Shown here one piece after another: positions 4,890-18,152 of a stretch of DNA of 64,000 nt. How positions within the stretch are numbered: position 1 is the first letter of the stretch; every line of letters starts with the position of its first letter. The DNA lies in NCBI RefSeq assembly GCF_004295345.1, contig NZ_CP036200.1, positions 1,860,001-1,924,000 of the forward strand. The letters are read 5' to 3'. This DNA comes from Shewanella maritima (lineage in GTDB: Bacteria; Pseudomonadota; Gammaproteobacteria; Enterobacterales; Shewanellaceae). The notes beneath the pieces were generated by a model. It was not told the origin of the DNA. It worked only from the letters and a program-made list of their open reading frames with translations, and did not search any database. The position numbers and the translations under genes were made by a program.

Positions 4890-5183
4890 GTGATTGAGGT
4901 ACTGAGCCTGCATATGAATAGCTTAACGGATAATGCCACTTATTTGGGTGATATCATGATTGGTGGCGCCACAATTGAACCTTTTGAGACCTGTACTTAT
5001 GAAGTTGAGAGTGTCAATGGATATGAAGGTGTGCTTGTACTGGATGATGAGCAGGTAATTAGCATTAACAAAGGAAAAGGTGATATTCACATCGAAGAGA
5101 CCGGTAGTGGTTCACTTGGCTTCTTATCACTGCTAGGCTTATTGGGGTTATCGCTAGCACTCAGAAACTCACTGATTAAGTAA
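4890..5183 (+). pseudogene. Orphan C-terminal fragment with GlyGly-CTERM sorting tail
   Basis: The frame opens near the end of the IS3 remnant and could be read from about 4860 (LELVARNSKEVIEVLSLH...). It ends with GSGSLGFLSLLGLLGLSL followed by a few polar residues with a final lysine. That Gly/Ser motif, hydrophobic helix and basic end are the GlyGly-CTERM signal processed by rhombosortase in Shewanella and Vibrio. Such tails belong to much larger secreted enzymes, so this is probably the 3' end of a gene cut by the adjacent insertion. The GTG at 4890 is only a nominal start. The preceding ~75 residues show no family I recognise. Confidence 0.65.
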
Positions 5184-5240
5184 CGATTTTAAGCGCTCCC
5201 TGACCGCGCTTTGGCCTGCTGATGCGTGTTGTTGGCTTTT

Positions 5241-5294
5241 TTATTCAGCTGAGTAATTAGATTAGTTAATCCCAAATAATCATCCATAACTGGA
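5241..5294 (+). promoter_or_regulatory. Putative promoter of RNA element A2
   Basis: The segment contains AGTTAAT, AATAATC and ATAACTGG in the same order as the region before element B1 (8791-8834), and similar AT-rich blocks precede the other copies. ATAACT is a plausible -10 box. No good -35 hexamer is visible, so an activator or another sigma factor may be involved. Confidence 0.35.
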
Positions 5295-5514
5295 GAAGCT
5301 CTCAGCAAAAGATGTAGATTGTGCTTGTTGTTTTCACTGTCTTGACTCCACTTAACTGTAAAGTAGCTTCATGCGCAGGGATAGTGAAAACAACAAACCT
5401 CAATATGTGACAACAACGTCACTACTTTAGCTTGATGGACATAGACGCTCGTCGACACTAAGGTGTGTTAGGCAAGCTCCTTCACCTGCTAGTTTCTAAC
5501 TAGCAGGTCTTTTT
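5295..5514 (+). ncRNA. Repeated structured RNA element, type 2 (copy A2)
   Basis: The core is a near-perfect stem: GTTGTTTTCACTGTC at 5327-5341 pairs with GATAGTGAAAACAAC at 5380-5394, with one G-U pair. It is followed by a CATAGACGC motif near 5439 and an intrinsic terminator at 5484-5514. Related copies lie at 9121-9319 and 10341-10551. In them both arms of the stem change together (GTTACTCTCAC/GTGAGAGTGAC and GTTGCTTTCAC/GTGAAAGCGAC), which supports a conserved RNA structure. The transcription start is inferred. I do not recognise a described RNA family. The downstream gene here is a TonB receptor. Confidence 0.6.
5484..5514 (+). terminator. Intrinsic terminator of RNA element A2
   Basis: A perfect 11-bp stem (ACCTGCTAGTT/AACTAGCAGGT) with a 3-base loop is followed by CTTTTT. 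Confidence 0.85.
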
Positions 5515-5873
5515 ACCTTTTTAGGGGTAAATTAAAACCAAACAACCACTCTTAAGCCCGCGTAAACTCGAGTCACAATAAGCTCTCTCTTGAGTTGTTA
5601 TCATTTGCCTTTTTATAGCTGAAGCCCCCTCCTTCTCAACACAATCACTAGGCAAATTTTATAAACACTCTTTTACGAATTTGATAAAGATGTAGAAAAC
5701 CTGCTTTGCTGGTCCAGCCTTAAGTTATGAGTTAATACCGATTTACATGCATTCAAGATTGCTTAATAAATTATTATGAATAATAAATCTTCTTTCTTTG
5801 TTGTCACCGTTATGTTGGTAGCGGATATCACACTTATCCAACTAATAATGAAAGCAACAATTAAGGGAAGATA
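5515..5873 (+). other. Spacer between RNA element A2 and TonB receptor gene, homologous to 9320-9709
   Basis: No gene is seen. The stretch shares several blocks with the spacer behind element B2, notably CTTCTCAACACAATC near 5632 (matched near 9463), and so belongs to the same repeated unit. The TonB receptor promoter should lie towards its right end. AAGGGAAG ahead of 5874 is the ribosome-binding site. Confidence 0.5.
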
Positions 5874-8698
5874 ATGATTCAAACTAAATTAGCGAAGTCA
5901 ATCGCATTGGCGTGTTGTGGCGTATTTTTTACGTCTTATGCTTACTCCAGTGAAGACACAATAGGGACATCGATCGAGCGAATTGAGGTGACAGGTTCAA
6001 AAATAAAAAGAATTGGCGAGTTGTCTCCAACACCAGTTACTGTGATATCAGGTGCTGACATGGCACAAATGGGAATAACAAATGTCGCTGACTTGTTAAA
6101 TAAATTACCTTCATCAACAGTGGGAATTTCTCCTGAAACCTCAAACGGATTTGTATTTGCAGCCGGACTAAACCAAACCAATTTGAGAGGGTTGGGTTCA
6201 GATCGTACGTTAGTGCTTGTTAATGGGCGGCGTTTTGTTGCTGGCTCAAATGGTGATTCCGCTGTCGATTTAAATACAATACCAACAGCAATGATCCAAC
6301 GAATTGAAGTTATAACTGGAGGCGCATCTGCAGTTTACGGCTCAGATGCAATCGCGGGTGTTGTCAATATTATTACTCGCACAAATGTGGATGGTATTGA
6401 ATTAGATGCAACCTATACTCAGCCACAGCAATCAGGAGGTGAGGAAACTCAATTCTCTTTAACTGCTGGAGGTGATTTTCTAGATGGTCAGCTAACTGCT
6501 GTATTCAATGCCACATTTGCTCAGCAAACACAGCTAACTAACTCTGGAAGAAGTTTTTTATCTAACCCTGTAGGCAGTATCTATAACCCAGACTACGACT
6601 CAAGCGATCCTAATAGTCCTGCAAAAGTACCATATGAAGGTAGAAAGCCACTATCATGGATTAACGAGGCTGGTACATTTTCGACTAATTCAGGGCAGTA
6701 TACTTTTGATAGTAATGGTGAGTTAAAGTTATTTGATTACGGCGAAGGCCTAATACCTGGGCCGGGTAATAATTCTAACTACTGTGGCCCCAGCTGTGAA
6801 GGGTATGATCCTATCAACTACGGCTTAGTTAGAACGCCGCTCGATAGAAAAGTATTCACTTTGAATACAAGCTACGATATTAATGATGATCATACAGTAT
6901 TTTCTGAAATAACGTATGTTGATTATCAAACTAATGGAGAGAGCTCTCCTGTATTCCATAGCTCTAATGCAATGTCTATTGATAATGCTTTTTTACCGGA
7001 AGATGCTAAAGACGTGTTAATCCAAGATGGATTAGATAGTTTTAATCTAGCGAGAATGGACACTGAGTTTGGCAATAGGTTATATGAGCAAAACCGTAAA
7101 ACATTTCGTTTTTTGGTCGGACTTGAAGGTGCGTTGACAGATAATTGGGACTACTCAATTCATGCGCAACGTGGTCAGCTAGATGAAACAACGATATGGC
7201 GTGGCGAAATATGGTCAGAACGCTACGATCAAGCAAAGGATGCCGTATGGCTAAATGGTGAAATAGCTTGTAGGAGTGCAACAGCAAGAGCAGCTGGTTG
7301 CGTTCCATTGAACTTATTTGGTGTAGATCAAGCAAGCCAAGAAGCAATTGACTGGGTAGGAACCCAAGCTGGTCAGACGGCAACGACAACTCAAACTTCG
7401 TTTGGAGCAGTATTGAGTGGTGCATTATGGGAGTTACCTGCTGGCTTTGTGTCAACAGCCTTTTCTTTGGATTATAGAAAAGAACAGTCTGAAACTAACC
7501 CTGATCAAGCATTGGTCGATGGAACTATTTTTGGCAATACCTCATTACCGATGTCAGGCGAATATGATGTCACTGAAATAGCTGCTGAAGTTAGTATTCC
7601 GATCCTAGAAGAACAATTCCTTGTAGATAGCTTAACTCTTGATTTAGCTTATCGCTGGATGGACTATAGTACTACGGGGCCAATGATGCATGGAAAGTCG
7701 GGTTAAACTGGTCTCCTACATCAGATCTGAAAGTGAGAGCTACACGTTCAAAGTCTGTTAGAGCGCCAAACATTGGTGAACTATTTGACCCTGGAGGGCA
7801 AACATTCACATCAATAACAGATGTTTGTGACTCAATCAATATTAACTTAGGTAGCAGCGCTCACAGAGCGGCTAATTGTAGGGCTGCTGGTTTATCAGAA
7901 GGATGGAACCCTACAGATGATTGGTATCAAGGGACGCGTCCAGGCATGATTACAGGCAATCCTGACTTAAAAGAAGAAACGTCAAATGACTATACAATAG
8001 GTTTAGTTTATACCCCTGATTACATTGAAGGATTCTCATTTACTTTGGATTATTGGGCATTTGCTATCGACGATGCAATTTCTTATATAGCAGTCAATAC
8101 AGCCGTGAAATATTGTTACGATTCAGAATCCTTGAGCAACATTTATTGCGACCTCTTTACCCGAGACGACAACACGGGGAATATCATTGATTATGTTAAT
8201 AAGCCTGTTAACTCTGCATCATATAATGTGAAAGGATTAGATATCGAATCTCGGTATTTCTATGAAACATCTGCACATGGTGATTTTAACTTTCGAGTTA
8301 TAGCAACATACTTGGAGCAATGGGAGTACAACCCAACAGGGTTTGCCAGTGATTTACAAAAAGATGTGGGGGAGTATACAGATCCTCGTTGGAAAGCCAT
8401 GTTCAGTTTGGGCTGGACCTATGATGATTTGACCCTTGAAGCTCGTGCAAACTACCGTCATTCAGCTGTTGCTAGCAATGATTGGGTGCCAAGTGACAAT
8501 AATTATAATGATATTCCGTCACATACCACTTGGGACTTTACGGGCAGTTATGTACTAACTGATGACTTAGATTTGCGTTTTGGTATAAAGAACGCCTTTG
8601 ATCTTGAGCCACCACGTAACCCATACGTTTACGATGGTGATGGCTATTATGATACTCAAGGGCGCGCATTTTTCTTAGGAGCTAACTACAGATTATAA
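5874..8698 (+). pseudogene. TonB-dependent receptor, frameshifted near 7678
   Basis: This is a complete receptor of about 940 residues apart from one frameshift. It has a signal peptide (ending YAYSS), a plug domain with IERIEVTGSKIKR, LRGLGSDRTLVLVNGRR and the IQRIEVITGGASAVYGSDAIAGVVNIIT block, then a 22-strand barrel ending in a C-terminal aromatic pattern (FFLGANYRL). The frame breaks at the G run 7676-7679. Adding one G joins YSTTG to ANDAWKVGLNWSP and restores the frame. It would import a substrate across the outer membrane using TonB energy, but the ligand cannot be read from the sequence. It lies between RNA elements A2 and B1, in the slot occupied elsewhere in the array by other genes. 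Confidence 0.88.
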
Positions 8699-8834
8699 GC
8701 ACGATCTAACCTCCTATCATTACCTATAGTGGTAGGAGGTTGGTCATTCAGTGTTAATCCTGGATATTCAGGCAACTCTTTTATTCAGCGGGGTTAATTA
8801 TGCTAGTTAATAAAAAATAATCTCTTATAACTGG

Positions 8835-9041
8835 ACGATTGCTCTACAAAAAACTAATTTGGTCTTGAGGTTGCTGCTGTGCATCACCCTAAGTAACGAT
8901 GGAACTGTCATGTCGCTCATGTTGTTCATATTACTATTTTGTGCAGTAGCGCTCTCATCATAGTAAAAGGCGCCATTTAATCCCTACCTAATGCGCCAAT
9001 AGCTCGTCCTTGCCGGTAGTCGACATTGTTACCGGCTTTTA
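8835..9041 (+). ncRNA. Repeated structured RNA element, type 1 (copy B1)
   Basis: The element begins after an AT-rich promoter-like block (8791-8834, with AGTTAAT and TATAACTGG) and ends in a terminator at 9012-9041 (GCCGGTA/TACCGGC plus TTTT). Just before the terminator is a hairpin GGCGC...GCGCC around 8977-9000. The same layout, with changed sequence, recurs at 10039-10258 and in decayed form at 10912-11100. The start site is inferred and no known family is recognised. Confidence 0.5.
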
Positions 9042-9120
9042 CTTCCTATCAGTATTAAACCTTTTGGGCCTACGGCCTGTGAAACCCATTTATCATAGTT
9101 AATCTTTTATAATTAGTAGC

Positions 9121-9319
9121 ATTGTGAGTAAAGGGGAGATTGATTTCGTTACTCTCACTGAGTTTACACCACTTATCTCTTAGGTTGCTTCACAGCTTGG
9201 ACTGTGAGAGTGACAAGGTTTATCTATACAATATACCTTGATAAACATAGACGCTTGTCTACATAAACCGTCTAGGTAAGGTCTTTCACCCGCTAGCTTC
9301 TGGTTAGCGGGTCTTTTTT
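9121..9319 (+). ncRNA. Repeated structured RNA element, type 2 (copy B2)
   Basis: It is preceded by TATCATAGTTAATC and TATAATTAGTAGC at 9091-9120, the latter holding a consensus TATAAT -10 box. GTTACTCTCAC (9148-9158) pairs with GTGAGAGTGAC (9204-9214). Relative to copy A2, pairs inside the stem have changed on both sides. CATAGACGC occurs near 9246. It ends in a strong terminator at 9288-9319 (ACCCGCTAGC/GTTAGCGGGT plus CTTTTTT). Confidence 0.6.
9288..9319 (+). terminator. Intrinsic terminator of RNA element B2
   Basis: A 10-bp stem with one G-U pair and a 5-base loop is followed by CTTTTTT. It differs in sequence from the A2 and C2 terminators but has the same geometry. Confidence 0.85.
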
Positions 9320-9709
9320 GGACAAAAGCTTTTTTAATTAATTCGACATACGTGATGCGTTATACCAAATAATCAAACTTAACCCCCACTAAAGCGTTTG
9401 TTGCGATAAGATATTAATTGAGCCGTTATCACGCTAGCCTGTTATTATTGCAGTTGAAACACCCTTCTCAACACAATCGCTTGGCAAGTTTTGGTAGCGG
9501 CTTTTTTAGTTGTGCACCTGCTTTTGTCAAACTCGGCCTTACCCTAAACATTTCACCTGATTAGCCAATATGTGAGTATCACGAGATATTTCTGATGAGC
9601 ACCCTGTTACGTTAGTGCTATCACGATTAAGTGATACGGTTTTCAGATAGGTGTGAGGGTGGGATGAAACACCTACGCTCATACCTCAACCTTACAAGAG
9701 TGCATTGTT
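9320..9709 (+). other. Spacer behind RNA element B2
   Basis: No gene is seen. Blocks here align with 5515-5700 (including CTTCTCAACACAATC near 9463) and in part with 10552-10690, so the spacer is part of the repeated unit. It leads into the 75-aa membrane protein gene. Confidence 0.45.
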
Positions 9710-9937
9710 ATGAAAATTCAAATTATTGTCGCGTTATTGTGTTTTGCTGTATTTGGTGCTTTATTGCCTGGCTCCCACTATGTCTATGCCACCTACTGTG
9801 ACACGATGGCAGGTTTTTATCTATCATTCGTGGTGGTAATGATTATGTGGATAAGCTTATTTGCAGGGTTTGCAAGTTTGTTTTTCCACAAATTAAAGGC
9901 CTTATACCAATCTGTGATTGATTACCAAGCAATGTGA
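9710..9937 (+). CDS. Small two-helix membrane protein within the RNA array
   Basis: The 75-aa product has two predicted membrane helices (about residues 4-22 and 35-57) separated by a short loop containing a cysteine, then a basic and amphipathic tail FHKLKALYQSVIDYQAM. No family is recognised. That it is a real gene is supported by a decayed copy at 10753-10830, whose translation (FHNFKELYQSVVDCQVA) aligns with its C-terminus in the correct frame. It follows RNA elements B1 and B2. A toxin, or a membrane partner of the RNAs, is possible but unproven. Confidence 0.6.
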   Translation: MKIQIIVALLCFAVFGALLPGSHYVYATYCDTMAGFYLSFVVVMIMWISLFAGFASLFFHKLKALYQSVIDYQAM

Positions 9938-10038
9938 ACCACAAGCGACCTCAGAAAGCCATTGTGGCCAGCAGGCCGTACATACTATTAGTCATGATTA
10001 ATTAAGCTAATTAAAGAATAATAACCTTCAATAATTAG

Positions 10039-10258
10039 CCATTTAAAGGCTGAGAAGGTAAGTTATTATTGAGCTTGTTACTGGGGTCATCTTTGTTGTC
10101 GAACAAGGTGTCGAACCTCTCATTCCGTCCACCTTATTCGCTTCATGGTAGCAGCTCACCAAAAATCATCATCAAAATAATAAGGCGCAACTCAATCCCT
10201 ATTGATGTGTCATTAGTTACGTTCCTTACCGGTAATCTACCCAATTACCGGTTTTTTT
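10039..10258 (+). ncRNA. Repeated structured RNA element, type 1 (copy C1)
   Basis: It follows an AT-rich block with AATAACC and AATAATTAG. Its 3' part shares GTGTCATTAGTTACGTTCC exactly with copy D1, ahead of a terminator at 10228-10258 (ACCGGTAAT/ATTACCGGT plus seven T). AGGCGC near 10178 and the CTCAAT/ATTGAT pairing match the hairpin seen in copy B1. The 5' end is inferred. Confidence 0.5.
10228..10258 (+). terminator. Intrinsic terminator of RNA element C1
   Basis: A perfect 9-bp stem (ACCGGTAAT/ATTACCGGT), a 7-base loop and seven T residues. Confidence 0.85.
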
Positions 10259-10340
10259 ATCCGCTCTAACATCAACACCTCATTCAAAATGAGCAAAACA
10301 AGCCCAAATTATCATAGTTAATTTTTTATAATTAATAGCT

Positions 10341-10551
10341 GGGGCCGAAAAGGTGTAAATTACACCCGTTGCTTTCACTATCTTGAAGACCTCCTTCCTT
10401 CGGTACCTTCAAACGCAGAGATAGTGAAAGCGACAAGACCCATCTGCATGATGGCGAAGCAAAACCTCAACGATATGGGCATACACACAGGCCAATACTT
10501 AGGTGTGATAAATTTGCCCACCTGCTCGCCCCTGGCGAGCAGGTCTTTTTT
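10341..10551 (+). ncRNA. Repeated structured RNA element, type 2 (copy C2)
   Basis: It is preceded by TATCATAGTTAATT and TATAATTAATAGC, nearly identical to the block before copy B2. GTTGCTTTCACTATCT (10368-10383) pairs over 16 bp with AGATAGTGAAAGCGAC (10419-10434). An inner TTGAAG/CTTCAA pairing extends the hairpin. The element ends in the terminator at 10520-10551. This is the best-paired of the three type 2 copies. Confidence 0.62.
10520..10551 (+). terminator. Intrinsic terminator of RNA element C2
   Basis: A perfect 11-bp stem (ACCTGCTCGCC/GGCGAGCAGGT) with a 3-base loop is followed by CTTTTTT. Confidence 0.88.
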
Positions 10552-10752
10552 ACCTCTTACCTGGCAAACGTTTCCGCAGCGAACACAGTCGTCAAATTGG
10601 CCGAAATCCCAATCCAGCCAAGGCATATTAAAACTAAATAATCATGTTTTACCCAACTTAAGCTTTTGGGACGATAAACTACAAACACACTATCTACCAC
10701 TTAGCTAACTGAACCGAACGACAAGGACTCCCTCCCAGCTTGATTATCCAAC

Positions 10753-10830
10753 TTATTAGCGCGATACAAGTTTATTTTCCATAATTTCAAGGAGCTATAC
10801 CAATCAGTAGTTGATTGCCAGGTAGCATAA
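10753..10830 (+). pseudogene. Relic of the 75-aa membrane protein gene
   Basis: Translation gives LLARYKFIFHNFKELYQSVVDCQVA then a stop. It aligns with the last 26 residues of the protein at 9710-9937 and ends at the matching stop. The N-terminal two thirds are missing. It sits after RNA elements C1 and C2 just as the intact gene sits after B1 and B2, which shows that the whole unit (two RNAs plus gene) was duplicated. Confidence 0.7.
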
Positions 10831-10911
10831 CGTCCGACTATAATAGAAAACATCACATTTTAAACAGTCAGCAATTAGACCAATTAAACAAGAATAACCA
10901 CCAATAATTAG

Positions 10912-11100
10912 TCAATTACAAGCTGAATAGGTAGATTACCAATGGGCTTGCTACAGGGTGCTAAACTAGTGTAGAACCTTTCATTCCGTCCTCTATGTTC
11001 GCTTACTGTTGCAGCCCATCAATCATCACTATAATAAGACATTATTCAACCCTAATTGATGTGTCATTAGTTACGTTCCTCACCGGTAATCTACCCAAAT
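10912..11100 (+). ncRNA. Repeated RNA element, type 1, decayed copy (D1)
   Basis: It shares with C1 the preceding ACCAATAATTAG block, the ACCTTTCATTCCGTCC block near 10977 and GTGTCATTAGTTACGTTCC near 11060. The left terminator arm ACCGGTAAT is intact, but the right arm and T tract have become AAATAAACTGGAGTTTT. The terminator is therefore lost and the segment supplies a TGGAG ribosome-binding site for the acetyltransferase gene starting at 11114. Confidence 0.45.
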
Positions 11101-11113
11101 AAACTGGAGTTTT

Positions 11114-11557
11114 ATGATTTTTTTGCGCCCAACTAAAGAACAAGAACTGAAGTTGCTTACCTCATTCGAGCAAGAAGACTGTATAAAGAACTTTATAACA
11201 CCTAACTCCCACATCGAGCATATAGATTTTTTTAGGAATGCAAACAACTTATACTTGTCTATTATTTTTCAAAATAAGGTTGTTGGCTTTTTCATTCTTA
11301 ATCAACAAGGCTGTTCAACTGAACTACGAAGATTTATCGTTACCACCAGGTATCAAGGGATAGGGATCGGGCGCATGGCTATGGAAAGGTTACACGAATA
11401 TTGCACGAACGAGCTTAAAGCAGCAAAAGTTTGGTTAGACGTTTTTGAGTTTAATGAAAAGGCAAAATACCTATACTCTCAATTAGGCTATCGTTATTTT
11501 GGTCAAGATTACCTAAATAAAAAATTGCTACTATTATTAGAAAAACATTTAGTTTAA
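11114..11557 (+). CDS. GNAT-family N-acetyltransferase
   Basis: This 147-aa protein has the GNAT fold pattern: a beta strand FILNQQG, then LRRFIVTTRYQGIGIGRMAMERL, containing the acetyl-CoA pyrophosphate-binding Q/R-x-x-G-x-G/A signature, then VWLDVFEFNEKAKYLYSQLGYR, the usual final strands and helix. It would transfer an acetyl group from acetyl-CoA to an amine, but the substrate cannot be told. TGGAG at 11105-11109 is a good ribosome-binding site and lies inside the decayed terminator of RNA element D1. Transcription may therefore begin at the D1 promoter. Confidence 0.85.
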   Translation: MIFLRPTKEQELKLLTSFEQEDCIKNFITPNSHIEHIDFFRNANNLYLSIIFQNKVVGFFILNQQGCSTELRRFIVTTRYQGIGIGRMAMERLHEYCTNELKAAKVWLDVFEFNEKAKYLYSQLGYRYFGQDYLNKKLLLLLEKHLV

Positions 11558-11673: not shown

Positions 11674-12297
11674 TTATTCCCAAGCTTTTGAAAAAGTATG
11701 GTCTTTAAAGGCCTCTGCCAACCCAGTTGTTTGCTGCATTCTTAGCACCTCATCTTTATCCATACCCAGTTCACTGGCAATATCTTCATCTAACCAGTTC
11801 ATAGCTTTAAGCTTTACGATCAAATTAGCTGTCAAATCTACTTGGTGAACTCCTCTTGCAACATTATGCCTGACAGAAGAAGCCATTCGTTGATCTAAGG
11901 TGCTGTCTAGAATACTTACTGGGATCAGTCCGTTAAGGCTTTCGTTAATAATCGAATCGCTCTTTATCAACTTTGACCGATGATAACCATCTACAATATA
12001 GTAATTTTGGCTTTCTGCATCATGACCACCAACAACTACTGGCATAGTTAGTCCATCAGTTTTAATAGATTTAGATAATAATCGGTACTCTGGAGATGCC
12101 ACTTTATTAGGATTATAATCATTATCAATAACTCGTTCTTGCGGCACAAGTTTAACATTTAAAACTGGATGCGAGATTTGGATGAGTTCATACGCAGCAT
12201 CAGATAGAAGGTTATAGATAAAGCATCGCTCATGTAAGGTGAGTGCCCCTTGGTGTTGCTTCAAACAGTCAATGAGTTCAGCCAATTTTTTATACAT
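11674..12297 (-). CDS. ibrB: IbrB-like ParB-domain protein
   Basis: The 207-aa product has a ParB/sulfiredoxin-type N-domain at about residues 60-145, with SPEYRLLSKSIKTDGL, VVVGG and YIVDGYHRSKL, where the G-x-H-R motif is the nucleotide-binding box. A helical C-terminus with an HTH-like segment (DEDIASELGMDKDEVLRM) follows. Its ATG directly follows the stop codon of the ibrA-like gene, so the two are translationally coupled. In Escherichia coli, IbrA and IbrB together activate surface Ig-binding protein genes, and pairs of this type are common on mobile elements. The biochemical activity is not established. Confidence 0.8.
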   Translation of the reverse strand: MYKKLAELIDCLKQHQGALTLHERCFIYNLLSDAAYELIQISHPVLNVKLVPQERVIDNDYNPNKVASPEYRLLSKSIKTDGLTMPVVVGGHDAESQNYYIVDGYHRSKLIKSDSIINESLNGLIPVSILDSTLDQRMASSVRHNVARGVHQVDLTANLIVKLKAMNWLDEDIASELGMDKDEVLRMQQTTGLAEAFKDHTFSKAWE

Positions 12298-13527
12298 TTA
12301 CCTTCCCTTTAAATACTCTTGATAAACGGCTATATAATGATTAGTAAGCTTTTTAGTCTGAGAAAATGAAAGCCCTCTGCACCAATAATCATTTTTAATT
12401 AGTGTCTTACAGATCCTTCGCCAACTAGGGACCTTTTTTTTACTCTCAAGCTTTCTGTCTGCAGAATCAGGAATCATTGATACCCCAAAACGTTTTCCAT
12501 TATTCTTCCACCAAATCAAAAATTGAAATATCCGACTTCGATAATGTGCAGACAGATGAGGTGGCATACTATCAAGCAAAAACTTACTGTATGCCTTATA
12601 ACTGTAACCAGCGGGAAGTTTAAAGTTGTAGTAGCCTAATATATGCCCCTGTTTTTTTGAGTACCTTGCACCAAAGTTACAACCTTCGACTCTGACAACC
12701 AGTCTCTCCCATGTTTGTGGCTCAAGAATATGATACAACCACAGCCCTTTTTTTTGGTCATCACCGTAGGGTTGGCAAAGTCGTTGCTGATGTAAGCTGA
12801 CTCCTGCCTTATGCATCAAATCATAAACATGATTGTACGACCAACCAAATTTACCATAAGCAGCCCAAACATCCTCTACTTTCCAATCATAAATTGGGTA
12901 GGCTAAATAGAGGCTCTGAGTTACTTTTGTTGTCCATTGAAAGTGAGCGAGTTTTCCCTTATTACGGTTTTTAATTGTTCGATATCTATTTAAAGATTCA
13001 TCACTTCTTATCCCTACCAAAGCAGCCATTGTTTGCTGAGTTTGCTCAGCCAACCACAACCCGTATTCCTTTACAAATTCTTCGAACTCCATTGCGTAAT
13101 AATAAAAGGGGAAAAAATCCAAGGCTGTCACGATATGACATTGAGGATTGTCTATAACCGGTAATGCTCTGACCCAAACGTCTTCTCTTTCTGGATCCCA
13201 ACATACCCATTTAGGTTGGTATTGTGAGGAGGCGTTACGAAGACTTAAAGGTAAACAAACCCAATGCATAACAACATCGCGGCTTTCAGCAAACGTTTTG
13301 ATAAAGTCATGCGTGTGTTGATACTGTGCTTCCATGTCAACATAAAGAACATGTATTGGTAAGCACTGTCGTTTTCTTGCCTCCTCAATCACCAAATGAA
13401 GTAGCACACCCGAGTCTTTACCTCCAGAAAATGCAACATAAACAGAATCTAATGTGTCAAATAATTCGTTTATTCGTGCTCTAGCTTGGGTATTAACATC
13501 ATTGTTTAAGAATACTTTCCCTTTCAT
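12298..13527 (-). CDS. ibrA: IbrA-like PAPS-reductase-family protein (DUF3440)
   Basis: This 409-aa protein has the adenylyl-transfer PP-loop SGGKDSG at residues ~34-40, then HVLYVDMEAQY, the PAPS-reductase-like core and a long C-terminal DUF3440-type region. It lies upstream of and touches the ParB-domain gene. The family resembles DndC and CysH in its N-terminal half, so an ATP-dependent activation step (possibly involving sulfur or a nucleic acid) is plausible. That part is inference. The length fits IbrA. The pair lies downstream of the tnsABC module on the same strand and is the likely cargo. Confidence 0.85.
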   Translation of the reverse strand: MKGKVFLNNDVNTQARARINELFDTLDSVYVAFSGGKDSGVLLHLVIEEARKRQCLPIHVLYVDMEAQYQHTHDFIKTFAESRDVVMHWVCLPLSLRNASSQYQPKWVCWDPEREDVWVRALPVIDNPQCHIVTALDFFPFYYYAMEFEEFVKEYGLWLAEQTQQTMAALVGIRSDESLNRYRTIKNRNKGKLAHFQWTTKVTQSLYLAYPIYDWKVEDVWAAYGKFGWSYNHVYDLMHKAGVSLHQQRLCQPYGDDQKKGLWLYHILEPQTWERLVVRVEGCNFGARYSKKQGHILGYYNFKLPAGYSYKAYSKFLLDSMPPHLSAHYRSRIFQFLIWWKNNGKRFGVSMIPDSADRKLESKKKVPSWRRICKTLIKNDYWCRGLSFSQTKKLTNHYIAVYQEYLKGR

Positions 13528-13964: not shown

Positions 13965-14962
13965 TTACTTTACACTCAAAATGTCATTAAGATTCATAGG
14001 TTTTGTATGTTGTGTTCCTGTTGCAGCTTGGTCTAGGGTTTTCATATCCGAATTCGAGCATAAAGTGGTTTCAATCTCTATTAACTTCAGTTGCTCAAAA
14101 GGTAACTCAAACACATTTACGCCTTCTGAAACCAAAGAAGTATAAGCAGCACTAAGATGTGCTAACGACACGGTGTTGTTCTTCTCCTGCAATGCTAAAA
14201 TGAGTGCTTCTTGTAGCAACGTCTTAATGTAACGATTTTCCCCACGGGTTGCGGCAAACAAAGGAATAGCAAACGGAGGTGAAGCTAAGTCTGGTGGAAA
14301 CTCAACGGGCATACGACTTGCTAACCCTTTTAGATATGACAAGTAATAGCGCCTTTCATTAATGTCTTTGAAACAAAAGTGCTTCAACCTTCGCCTACGA
14401 ATAAGCCTAGAAGCCCATTGCGGATCCTCGCAAATTTGGGCAGCCAAAGGCGTACCTACAAAAGCTATTGGAACCTGGGCCTCCTCGCTTATGTATTTGA
14501 GCAAGTTGCCAATAGCTTGACGTTCTTGTTCACTTTTATATTCAAGAATTTTTTGAAACTCATTAATGATAATCAGCTCAGTCTTTGTGAGCTTTAAAGC
14601 ATCAACTAATTTCTGTTCTAAATTTGGGCCAAAACCCAAGCGTCGATATTGACTCGCCCCAAAAAGATCTAGATCATAAAGCATCTGAACCAAGGTATTA
14701 TCTAAGTCCCGCTTCGCTGATATACGCGTTACTAAAACAGGTCTTTGCGTGCTGGTAAACTCCTGAGCAAACGACTTTGCTTTATAATGGTCAATCAGTG
14801 CACTTTTTCCGGTCCCCGCCCTCCCGTGATTAAAATAGATTGCTGATCTTTTGAGAGTAGACGCCGAATGCGTAAGTTATCCAGATCATCAATTATCGTT
14901 TTGACATATGGGTGTTCTACATAGCACAAAGAAAACTGCTTCACTGTAGCTAGTATATCCAT
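13965..14962 (-). pseudogene. tnsC: TnsC/TniB-like AAA+ transposition ATPase, frameshifted in the P-loop
   Basis: The ATG at 14962 begins MDILATVKQFSLCYVEHP and reads to ILITGG. The Walker A motif then breaks. With one base restored near 14820 it becomes ITGGAGTGKSALIDHY and continues through the Walker B-like ELIIINEFQKIL, sensor-like VPIAFVGTP and the arginine-rich SRLIRRRRLKHF to a stop at 13965, about 332 residues in all. TnsC-type ATPases select target DNA and activate the TnsAB transposase. The lesion is in a G/C run (GGAGGGCGGGG) and may be a sequencing error. The start lies 44 bp after tnsB. Confidence 0.83.
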
Positions 14963-15005: not shown

Positions 15006-16807
15006 CTACTTTATTAATTTCTGCCCCTCTTCAAGTGCGAACCCTTTTGAAGTATTCGCAGTTAACACGCCATTCTCAACGTTACTACCGATACCTTTAT
15101 ACTTTGCTAACTTCTTCATCCCACTTTGCTTTTGTTTTTTGTTCATTAACGCTTGCTCAACCATTTGCTCAATCTCTAGCCGACTCTGAGCAAGCGAACT
15201 CGAATTCTGAGAATCGGTAACTTTTCGTCGTCGGTTTTTTATATTTACTTTGTGCTGAGTTAGTGTAAGTGCATTGGTATAACCGTCGGGATCTTTAGCC
15301 GGAACTTTGAGATAACGCTCATGGTGTTCTAGATACACATAGATGTGACTTAAATCGTGAGGATTAATTTTAATTTGAGCTTTCAAACTACGCCTAGAGG
15401 CTACTGGGGTGTATTTCCTATACTCTACCAACTCTGGTGTGTCGTACAGTAAATGTAAAAACTGGATGCCATCTTTTGAAATAGAGCGTGTATCTAAAAC
15501 TCCTAGTTTTACACGCAAAAGTTCATTATTTTCACCAGTATATTCAATCGGTGGATAAACAGACACGCCTTCATACCACTTTGCAATTGGTACTCGTGTT
15601 TTTCGCTCGTCAGCTTTTTGGTTATAAACCTCAATAACCCATTTATGTAATAGTTCATTAAATAAACTGAAGCTAATGGCTGCTTCTCTATCTGGTTGAT
15701 AATCACCTTTTTCATCAATATTTCTAAAGTTTTTCCCAGGTAGAGAATCTAAAAACTCCGAATTCAATGTTCTAAAGAACCGCTCAACTTTCGGCTTTTT
15801 CCAAGGTTTGCCAACAGGATTGTAACTCGTGTTAATACCTAATTCCCTACAAGCAGACTCTAATGAATCTCCCCAAAACTCAACGCCATTGTCAACAACC
15901 AATAGCTCAATTTTTCCATGGCAAGGCCAGTCTGCTTTGATGCTTGAAAAGCTAGAGATTACATCTTCTTTACTTAGCATCGCATTAACTAATGCAGCTC
16001 GAACAGATAAATAACTAGGCTCATTAAAACTGACATAAAATCCCACTACACAACTACTATAGCAATCCACAAGCGCCGTAATGGTTGGTCGACCAATCAC
16101 AGTCAGGTTATCTTCCATCAATACAGTAAAATCGAGCACAGTGTGATCAATCTCTACTCGTTCCATCACACAAGTAGGCTCTGCATATTTATCACCTAGC
16201 TTATACTTTTTTTGTACATAACTCCGACCAAAGCGTGCCAATTCGACTTCATAGGGCTTAAACGTTTGATACGTGCATTAAAGCCCGTATAGGAGAGAGG
16301 GACTATTGCTCCTGATACCAAACGCATGTTTTCGAGCTGAATTAGATCGCAATAGTAACGGTAGGCAGTCGCGACACTTGGACGTTCTTTACGTAAATAT
16401 TTATCTTCCAGGGCTTTATTAAAGTAAAAATCACCACTGTTATTTTTAAGAGTTCTATTACCTTTTTTGGCTAAGGAAGGAATAAGCGCTGTTATACAAA
16501 AATTAGATTTTCGATATTTACTATACCAAGAGGCTATTGCGCGCCACTTTGGTTTAGGGGAGTTATCATAAGGGGTTAACAGTGCTAGCAGTGGCTCGAT
16601 GTTCTTTTGTGTCCACCCACCATCTATGCGTTTTTGAATGAATCTAACATAATACAAGCGCTTTTTAGTCTCATATTGAATTGCTTCACTATGCATCTCA
16701 AGAGATTTACTAGCATGAATAGCGGTTTTAACATTATGATTTGCATCAAGTGATTCTGCACCTAGTTCATCAACTTCATCCTTAAATAGATCAACACTTT
16801 TATTCAT
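15006..16807 (-). pseudogene. tnsB: TnsB-like DDE transposase, frameshifted near 16255
   Basis: Two overlapping frames make one protein of about 600 residues. The first (from 16807) carries the helical DNA-binding N-domain and breaks at KRLSP. With one base restored in the run 16254-16256 it continues PYEVELARFGRSYVQKKY. The catalytic core follows: D in VEIDHTVLD, D in LVVDNGVEFWG and E in KPKVERFFRTLN. A C-terminal beta-barrel region comes next. TnsB cuts the 3' ends and joins them to the target. Its start overlaps the end of tnsA by 8 bp. The core is intact, so the element may be functional if the frameshift is an artefact. Confidence 0.85.
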
Positions 16808-17429
16808 AAGCGATAAAAAGCTCTGTACCTAAACCAAAAGGAATAGCGTCTAAATCAAACTGTATTAAACCTTGTGAAGCACCAATTAAAACTAGTTTAT
16901 TAAGTCGTCCGCAGGTTAACTTTGATTGCTCAAGTAAATCACGTACTGTCACGACACCAAACTCACGAATCAAGGACAATAGCCATTCAATTTGAGTATT
17001 GCACTTTGAATCTCCTGAATAACGATGTAACAACTTCAGGTTATTGAGGCGTGGTTCTTTATGAAGTTGTCGCTCAGTGAGCAACCTAAGCTCCATACCG
17101 AGTTCACTACACGATCGCTGCTTGCGCTTAAATCTATGCATAACCTCTGGGACACTAGCCTCGTTTGAGTACTTTATTTCATAGTAGATTTGCCTACCAA
17201 GAGTGCTTGATACTAAAAAATCAGGAGTATAAGGAAAGGACTTGCCATAATACTGGTAATGAAAACCAACAGGTTGTGCTTCAAAAAACTCTATCGACTT
17301 GCTAAATTCAAAATGAAAACAAGCATTAAACTCTAATGTAGACTCTAACGTTAATGTTGCGCGGTTCTTTATGCTAGCGAACTTATAAAGGTTCTTCACA
17401 CGAGAGTGCTTTATGCTTCTTTGATACAT
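16800..17429 (-). CDS. tnsA: TnsA-like endonuclease
   Basis: This 209-aa protein fits TnsA, which cuts the 5' ends of a Tn7-like element. It has the restriction-endonuclease-type acidic residues: E in LESTLEFNACFHFEF (about residues 28-42), D in YTPDFLV and the E-x-K of YYEIKYS. A C-terminal winged-helix-like region (TVRDLLEQSKLTCGRLNKLVLIGA) follows, where TnsC usually binds. It is the first gene of tnsABC, starting about 130 bp from the transposon end, and overlaps tnsB by 8 bp. Unlike tnsB and tnsC it is not frameshifted. Confidence 0.83.
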   Translation of the reverse strand: MYQRSIKHSRVKNLYKFASIKNRATLTLESTLEFNACFHFEFSKSIEFFEAQPVGFHYQYYGKSFPYTPDFLVSSTLGRQIYYEIKYSNEASVPEVMHRFKRKQRSCSELGMELRLLTERQLHKEPRLNNLKLLHRYSGDSKCNTQIEWLLSLIREFGVVTVRDLLEQSKLTCGRLNKLVLIGASQGLIQFDLDAIPFGLGTELFIAYE

Positions 17430-17471
17430 AGAAAACAGTCAAATGTTGTAAAATAACGATCAAATAGTATA

Positions 17472-17549
17472 CTATGTACGCTTATGGTTTAAATTATGCA
17501 CACTTATTTGTCACTATGTACGCTTATGTGTAATTTATGCAGACTTATG
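17472..17549. repeat. Four TnsB-type binding repeats at the transposon end
   Basis: Four related 15-bp units occur at 17472-17486, 17494-17508, 17514-17528 and 17535-17549: CTATGTACGCTTATG twice, TTATGCACACTTATT and TTATGCAGACTTATG. Spacing is 20-22 bp. All lie in the same orientation between the tnsA start and the inferred terminus, as TnsB sites do in Tn7-like elements. Confidence 0.75.
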
Positions 17550-17573
17550 CTTGCAACAACAATTAACAAAAGA

Positions 17574-18152
17574 CTACACATCTACATGTGATTTAAGCAG
17601 CTGCAGCACGAAGTCTAGCGTCTTGCGGCAGTTTGGTTGATCCGCCAACATAATCTTGTCGCGGTTATACATGGGTAACACCTCAAGCCAACGCTGACTG
17701 ACCCAAGACGCATCTTCTAAATGAATTGAGGAGTATAAATCTAGCAGCTCAGGGTTCACTTGGTAGAACTGTTCCAGCGCTGCGCTGATGATTTCAAACT
17801 CGCCGCTAATGGGTTCTTGTCGCCAGTTAGGGCATGCCAAAGTACGCGCTGTATAAGTGCCATTTCTATGCTGACCAACCGATAAGATTTTAATGCGCTG
17901 ATGCCCTTCGAGTACAACACAAAGCGAGCCAGATTCAGTCTGATTGAAGTCAATGATCCGACATTCAGTAGCCGTGATATAACAAGGAAGATCTGCATTC
18001 TTACGTTCTGCACCAAACGCTAGCGGAAAGTGCCCTTTCAACACACGAGCGATTTGCTTAAGTTCTCCGGGAGAGACAATTTCAATCTCTAACCGTCCGC
18101 TAGGCAGCAGAACAGCGTCTTGAACAATTAGTGCCATTTCTTGAGATTGCAT
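17574..18152 (-). CDS. Lon N-terminal (substrate-binding) domain protein
   Basis: The 192-aa product matches stand-alone LON-substrate-binding-domain proteins: a beta-rich N-half (LPSGRLEIEIVSPGELKQIARVLKG, DFNQTESGSLCVVLEGHQRIKI) and a helical C-half (DASWVSQRWLEVLPM). It lacks the ATPase and protease parts of Lon. AAGGAGG lies six bases ahead of the ATG at 18152, which fixes the start. Its function is unknown beyond probable peptide binding. The Tn7-like terminus lies just past its stop, making its 3' end the probable attachment site. Confidence 0.82.
   Translation of the reverse strand: MQSQEMALIVQDAVLLPSGRLEIEIVSPGELKQIARVLKGHFPLAFGAERKNADLPCYITATECRIIDFNQTESGSLCVVLEGHQRIKILSVGQHRNGTYTARTLACPNWRQEPISGEFEIISAALEQFYQVNPELLDLYSSIHLEDASWVSQRWLEVLPMYNRDKIMLADQPNCRKTLDFVLQLLKSHVDV

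Follow-up and report, generated by a model that had tools for sequence, protein, structure and literature searches.

An Array of Putative Paralogous Small-RNA Genes Carried by a Tn7-like, Type I-F3 CRISPR-Associated Transposon of Shewanella maritima

Results

Related Elements of Two Types and Their Copies

A stretch of 64,000 nucleotides (nt) of the 4.72-Mb genome of Shewanella maritima (the window; contig NZ_CP036200.1, positions 1860001–1924000) was analyzed, in which an earlier note, made from the sequence alone, had described an array of repeated, terminator-ended structured RNA elements. Direct repeats and alignments bore out its six intergenic elements of two types, in the order A, B1–B2, C1–C2, and D1, with B1, C1, and D1 belonging to type 1 and A, B2, and C2 to type 2, all on the plus strand within 5250–11107. 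Together with a further copy, E, the array lies in the cargo of a transposon of the type I-F3 CRISPR (clustered regularly interspaced short palindromic repeats)-associated, Tn7-like kind. The best reading of the elements, to which we give about an even chance, is that they are paralogous genes for structured small RNAs, a new family grown by duplication, with predicted transcription and function. Plain positions below are those of the window; L016 is numbered so that L016:4368 is contig position 1824368, and L017 is the stretch that holds the region upstream of E.

Copy E, the fourth of type 2, was found by blastn and with a covariance model at contig positions 1848538–1848768, 16.5 kb upstream and outside the window, which brings the totals in the genome to four type-2 and three type-1 copies. 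Element A is a fusion of the two types: a type-1 profile built without it matches 5250–5339 (E = 1.4e-5), and the type-2 profile matches 5263–5514. The type-2 covariance model (R1), built from the four type-2 copies and thus containing A among its own sequences, scores A at 172.4 bits. A decayed type-1 partner may tentatively be placed before E, at L017 ~8417–8478, where the likeness was reached by 6/300 shuffles for C1, 30/300 for D1, and 133/300 for B1; the type-1 profile gave no match there.

Overall identity, gaps counted, is 46–70% among the type-1 copies and 50–67% among the type-2 copies, and the duplications therefore look old. The kinship between copies is mosaic. C2 is nearest to E (67%). 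Taken as a whole, B2 is 59% identical to A and 56% identical to C2; its 3′ part is 77% identical to A over 87 nt, its first 60 columns are 73% identical to C2, and its leader is 55% identical to the leader of A. Modules B and C have in common a gene for a 75-amino-acid (aa) membrane protein, intact in B and a relic in C. Insertions and deletions between copies include several of 1, 2, 4, and 7 nt, plus some multiples of three; the former argue against coding.

Folds and Compensatory Changes

The predicted folds of both types are kept by compensatory change. In type 2 (39 pairs, four sequences), 85.9% of cells are paired, and 11 of the 39 pairs have changes on both sides, against a mean of 5.1 in shuffled alignments, none of which (0/500) reached 11. 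Controls in which the structure was slid gave 0–5 such pairs, with 42% of cells paired after a slide of one column. The support is carried by the long hairpin (92% of cells paired) and the terminator (100%). In type 1 (31 pairs, three sequences), 90.3% of cells are paired, and changes on both sides were seen in 7/31 pairs (shuffled mean 3.3; 2/500 shuffles reach 7; slid controls 0–1). As the type-2 copies are only 50–67% identical and yet have kept their long hairpin and terminator paired, these parts were probably under selection during that time. The earlier note would have given up its proposal had covariation been lacking; compensatory changes were found in both types. Its suggested Rfam comparison gave no family at threshold in the window, the array, or the region of E: there were no matches in the window, and matches in the array and the E region fell below the curated thresholds.

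The Spacer as a Third Related Part of the Module

The spacers behind the type-2 terminators (A3, B3, C3, and E3) are homologous between modules, as had been proposed. The A3–B3, C3–E3, and B3–C3 alignments were not equaled in single-base shuffles (0/300 each), and weaker relationships were obtained for B3–E3 (1/300), A3–C3 (5/300), and A3–E3 (79/300). The sequence CTTCTCAACACAATC occurs at 5632 and again at 9464 (one position further than first given), where 0.01 occurrences with at most one mismatch would be expected. B3 and E3 open with their own copy of the block that precedes the elements (B3 compared with A and D1, E3 with B1; all 0/200), the block at the start of C3 is weaker (best 4/200), and that of A3 is not significant. 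With the spacer counted as its third related component, a module consists of RNA1, RNA2, a leader, and a gene. The earlier view of a copied unit made of two RNAs plus a gene is thus kept as regards copying and covariation, and has to be amended for the role of the spacer as a related part of all modules, the fusion in A, and the transposon cargo setting, all of which it overlooked.

Terminators and 5′ Blocks

A pattern scan of 5180–11150 revealed 11 terminator-like sites, against a shuffled mean of 4.4. The five with the most pairs are the plus-strand ends of A, B1, B2, C1, and C2, in agreement with the strong intrinsic terminators reported for every element but D1, at which the scan found no terminator-like site; the terminator of E was seen by alignment.

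The AT-rich, promoter-like block said to precede each element is shared in part and holds no σ70 consensus site. In cross-type comparisons of the blocks, 8/40 reached ≤1/200 in single-base shuffles. A motif based on the block sequences, AATAA[TC]C-N4/5-TAA[CT], occurs nine times on the plus strand and never on the minus strand of 124 kb, and six of the nine occurrences are block sites. A σ70 consensus scan gave 15 promoter-like sites (16.6 in shuffles); the best of them on the plus strand (10815–10844, 11/12) lies ~30 nt before the D1 block, and the C1 block is overlapped by one on the minus strand.

The Host Transposon

The array from A to E is, as judged from gene content and ends, carried as cargo by a Tn7-like element of 53.2 kb, a type I-F3 CRISPR-associated transposon (CAST), which spans contig positions 1824368–1877561 (L016:4368 to window position 17561; 53,194 bp) beside a gene for a LON-substrate-domain protein. 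Its inverted tips, TGTTGCTACAAACATAAG at 1824368 and TGTTGTTGCAAGCATAAG at 1877561, are alike at 15 of 18 positions, and TTAAC stands outside both, with one extra base at the left. The I-F3 CAST gene set (tnsA, tnsB, tnsC, tniQ, cas8/5, cas7, and cas6) is present, with several genes split, along with repeat-bearing ends, a short flanking duplication, and a spacer against the flanking gene. The far side of the element encodes Cas6/Csy4, a Csy2 domain in a 701-aa open reading frame (ORF) that we read as fused cas8/5, and Csy3/cas7; a TniQ match lies in one of two ORFs (L016:15093–16327), and the CRISPR array is at ~L016:10914–11154. On the window side, ORF 16196–16807 had no family match and was assigned to TnsB by its position, and the TniB/TnsC-like ORF is apparently incomplete, its size having been judged by eye. 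With tnsB and tniQ both divided between two ORFs and a seemingly incomplete tnsC, the transposon probably has no activity of its own.

The LON-domain gene is the probable homing target, as suggested by its match to CRISPR spacer 3, in which 7/9 mismatches fall at third codon positions of the gene's frame (hand count). Spacer 4 resembles spacer 3 (23/32). The insertion sites named for such transposons in the available portions of PMC11406308 and PMC12452197 are rsmJ, cobO, guaC, yciA, ffs, parE, and ParM/StbA genes, from which the LON-domain target differs; it may nonetheless not be new, because hypothetical-protein genes are also named there as sites.

What looks like a defense cluster in the cargo lies beyond the CRISPR array (L016:4833–9467); its products are a patatin-like protein, a fused E2/ThiF/JAB protein, and a protein of 411 aa that matched no family. 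The cargo also holds a sortase gene followed by a possible sortase-substrate gene, recognized by eye (L017:5314–6549). A very long minus-strand ORF of 2891 aa (L017:11291–19966) has repeated stretches.

Search for Relatives

Relatives were sought with methods of limited sensitivity for copies this diverged, and the genome counts below include the S. maritima genome itself. Blastn of C2 against 97 genomes of the genus found its own genome only, apart from a 20-nt match in G086 (E = 0.008) that we take as chance. The type-2 covariance model, run on 152 family genomes with up to 16 candidates per genome scored, recovered its four source copies and one antisense match in the same genome; five other genomes had E values of 0.07–0.48. 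Three more matches among 394 genomes of the order (six candidates per genome; E = 0.0012–0.041) were rejected, as they consist mainly of a terminator and generic stems and are near chance level for 394 genomes. The DNA from B to C, searched in 369 genomes of the class (up to two candidates per genome), was found in its own genome only. Pattern searches gave no match in genome contigs and none in viral contigs, except for one pattern with 11 loci (best covariance-model match E = 3.9), and phages (searched without E) and plasmids gave no match.

Of the 24 other genomes that have a cas8/5 relative, 20 were searched in its neighborhood, those with a weak or partial one (G033, G037, G105, and G114) being excluded. 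Up to 40 kb on the expected cargo side was covered, with five neighborhoods shortened by contig ends and not every one confirmed as a transposon. The best covariance-model match in these 20 genomes had E = 1.3, the type-1, type-2, and leader profiles had no match at E = 1, and the modules, compared by sensitive blastn, had only two (E = 0.012 and 0.031). One genome (G022) has an 82% match to the tns region, at which its contig ends. Copies outside this strain, which the earlier note had looked to, are thus absent as far as these searches reach. Within the S. maritima genome, the type-2 model (16 of 838 first-look candidates scored; no type-1 model search) found no dispersed type-2 copy outside the transposon cargo, and a dispersed repeat similar to miniature inverted-repeat transposable elements or repetitive extragenic palindromes is not supported on this ground. 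In open-licence papers, no description was found of small RNAs in such transposons or of repeated intergenic Shewanella RNAs.

Possible Antisense Pairing

A weak lead points to antisense pairing of the predicted RNAs with the adjacent TonB receptor mRNA. When 99 start regions (ORFs of at least 120 aa) were ranked by local helix, the TonB start came 4th with A, 3rd with B2, and 8th with C2. In 70 duplex tests (seven RNAs by ten gene starts), the lowest Z values were those of A and B2 with TonB (−3.1 and −3.4); we do not find them convincing after 70 tests, and the ranking agrees only partly. The TonB leader at 5845–5860, ATAATGAAAGCAACAA, just before the start codon, agrees at 14/16 positions with the 3′ hairpin arm of A and C2, and no other site in 124 kb, the elements aside, matches either hairpin arm as well. 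This match was found after the fact, and 5/60 shuffles reach its pairing score.

Interpretation

We consider it about evenly balanced that the array consists of sibling small-RNA genes of two types with a related mRNA leader, duplicated in tandem as a module and carried as I-F3 transposon cargo. The module of RNA1, RNA2, leader, and 75-aa gene would have multiplied by tandem duplication, and later insertions and deletions may have placed the TonB, GNAT, and other genes beside its copies. Each RNA would be a transcript of its own beginning near the block. The RNAs would act in trans as regulators, the best guess being that the long hairpin pairs with mRNA starts such as that of the adjacent TonB gene, and D1 RNA may now serve as the 5′ leader of the GNAT mRNA. 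Several observations weigh against this account. The blocks are not a recognizable σ70 promoter, with no plus-strand promoter match coinciding with a block, and 32/40 cross-type block comparisons, those of A3 among them, miss 1/200. The covariation comes from four and three sequences of one genome, the same ones that gave the structures; helix 2 of type 2 is backed in part (74% of cells paired) and helix 3 is unsupported (50%). By duplex energy, the TonB start ranks 55th (A), 7th (B2), and 84th (C2) of 99, and by local helix it ranks 46th for B1, 96th for C1, 68th for D1, and 36th for E. Much of the surroundings is decayed, and, because no relatives were found elsewhere, conservation gives no measure of function.

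If the elements were instead cis-acting leaders, attenuators or riboswitch-like, read-through of their terminators would control the downstream gene. Each type-2 element is indeed followed on the same strand by a related leader and a gene or its relic, and D1, which has no terminator, continues into the GNAT gene. We nevertheless hold this unlikely, in view of the strength of the terminators, of which TonB has one ahead of it and the 75-aa gene two in a row, the distances from terminator to start codon of 359 nt (5515 to 5874) and 391 nt (9319 to 9710), the block copies with which the B and E leaders open, the lack of an Rfam family at threshold, and the unrelated genes that related RNAs precede. 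To a similarly low degree we credit the view that the repeats are functionless remains of a dead mobile or viral element. The split TonB, tnsB, and tniQ genes, the apparently incomplete tnsC, the relic 75-aa gene, the absence of a terminator from D1, and the absence of a clear type-1 partner of E all fit it, but a long hairpin and terminator that stayed paired while type-2 copies diverged to 50–67% identity were probably selected during that time.

Somewhat less probable still is that the modules function as sites in the DNA, either pads for recombination or a cassette system with which the transposon swaps cargo, and that their hairpins act as DNA or are incidental. Related modules beside different genes and the mosaic kinship would be expected of such sites, and a review considers undiscovered cargo-capture mechanisms likely in the portions available (PMC11406308). 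However, no integrase adjoins the array, the best integron-integrase match being in two pieces, below the cut-off, and 2.27 Mb away; the copies are old (37–70% identity overall), with folds kept and all in one orientation; and nothing similar stands beside cas8/5 relatives in the 20 other genomes. A cargo-exchange platform, in which transcribed, structured RNA genes doubled as homology pads, so that chromosomal genes of the host, captured behind an existing block and leader, came under the control of module RNAs, seems to us improbable. We regard as equally doubtful a system resembling type I or type III toxin–antitoxins, in which the RNAs would be antitoxins to a toxic 75-aa membrane protein. 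In its favor, module B has a gene for a small membrane protein after its two RNAs, module C has the relic, and D1 has a 15-nt complementarity (G–U allowed; 0/60 shuffles) to the leader of the 75-aa gene; but this falls below the best of 28 comparisons (17 nt elsewhere), and two more of 70 pairs reach 0/60 (C2 with cas8, and D1 with GNAT, which overlaps D1 itself). The protein family is chromosomal, with matches in 19/152 family genomes (its own included), and blastn of the elements against 19 loci of the 75-aa gene outside the array (18 genomes and a second copy in its own) gave one 15-nt match only. The 75-aa protein has no Pfam or NCBIfam match; it, TonB, GNAT, and a 231-aa protein that likewise matches no family are the neighbors of the RNAs, and no known type III toxin family was found behind them.

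Comparison with Known Systems

Sibling small RNAs, of which Qrr, PrrF, and LhrC are examples, come nearest in kind. The copy families described here have at least two paralogues in one genome, which, as sequence, is what marks such siblings. As in the systems covered by the available part of PMC4211561, there are several paralogous, terminator-ended small-RNA genes per genome, some in tandem; unlike them, two RNA types and a leader repeat here as a module with a protein gene, in copies that are only 46–70% identical, are borne by a transposon, and are known from sequence alone. The host element is like the Shewanella CAST described in the accessible text of PMC12452197 in its tnsABC, tniQ, fused cas8/5, cas7, cas6, CRISPR array, and large variable cargo, and differs from it in its probable homing target, the LON-domain gene. 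By term count, "sRNA" and "noncoding" are absent from the main text of that paper, and "small RNA" and "noncoding RNA" from the available text of the review PMC11406308; both treat or describe cargo as genes.

In integron gene cassettes, genes are likewise separated by related structured repeats in one orientation, whereas our array has no adjoining integrase and its elements are ~250 nt long with terminators. Type III toxin–antitoxin systems (ToxIN) share with the array the order of a repeated RNA, a terminator, and a gene, but no toxin family was found here and each RNA forms a single long structured unit.

Should the RNAs prove to be expressed, they would be a structured bacterial RNA family that is not in Rfam and resides in CRISPR-associated transposon cargo, and a test case for whether such transposons carry regulatory RNAs for their own or host genes. 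The array would then also be a test case for cargo acquisition, a question left open in the available portions of the review (PMC11406308).

Neighboring Genes

Features of the array and of the transposon end in the window are collected in Table 1. The statement that each unit has a different downstream gene is true only in part: B and C have the same gene, intact and as a relic. Since both of these modules have it, the 75-aa gene probably travelled with the unit; the TonB and GNAT genes and the one that follows E appear to be different neighbors or ones that came later. The relic reported after C2 was confirmed. The TonB receptor reported after A was recognized by a Plug domain, and proved to be in two ORFs in different frames. 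GNAT relatives occur in 8/152 family genomes, its own included, at E = 1e-15.

Table 1. Features of the array and of the adjoining transposon end (window positions).
Feature	Position	Strand	Evidence or remark
Element A: fusion of 5′ block and ~90 nt of type 1 with type-2 body	5250–5516	+	Long hairpin, middle stem, terminator 5484–5508
Leader/spacer A3, third related part, CTTCTCAACACAATC at 5632	5530–5664	+	Profile match (profile built from A3)
TonB-dependent receptor, two ORFs, 5874–7706 and 7733–8698	5874–8698	+	Pfam Plug domain, first ORF
Element B1, type 1: block, long stem, second stem, terminator 9012–9036	8788–9038	+	Alignment, profile, covariation
Element B2, type 2, terminator 9288–9312	9085–9319	+	Alignment, type-2 covariance model, profile, covariation
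Leader/spacer B3, block AATAATCAAACTTAACC, CTTCTCAACACAATC at 9464	9356–9496	+	Profile, shuffled alignments
75-aa membrane-protein gene, kin to chromosomal gene of same genus	9710–9937	+	Matches in family genomes
Element C1, type 1, terminator 10228–10252	9993–10254	+	Alignment, profile, covariation
Element C2, type 2, terminator 10520–10544	10304–10550	+	Alignment, type-2 covariance model, profile, covariation
Leader/spacer C3	10625–10759	+	Profile, shuffled alignments
Relic of 75-aa gene, last 19 codons in frame	10771–10830	+	Repeat family D7, translation
Element D1, type 1, no terminator, continues into GNAT gene	10867–11107	+	73% identity to C1 over 248 columns
GNAT acetyltransferase gene, start codon 11114	11114–11557	+	Pfam PF00583
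TniB/TnsC-like ORF	13965–14693	−	Pfam TniB
TnsB-like transposase, two ORFs, 15006–16241 (Mu-type transposase domain) and 16196–16807	15006–16807	−	
tnsA	16800–17429	−	Pfam TnsA
Transposon left end: repeats CATAAGCGTACATAGT and similar, tip TGTTGTTGCAAGCATAAG; TTAAC at 17563–17567	17471–17561	−	
CRISPR spacer 3 match, 23/32, in LON-domain gene (17574–18152)	17610–17641	−	

The integron-integrase-like gene of the genome lies far from the array, at contig positions 4145550–4146753; it scores below the family cut-off and is broken into two pieces, one of which contains stops. On the minus strand of the window (11674–13527), a ParB-N-like gene adjoins a PAPS-reductase/DUF3440 gene, a pair that resembles ibrB–ibrA.

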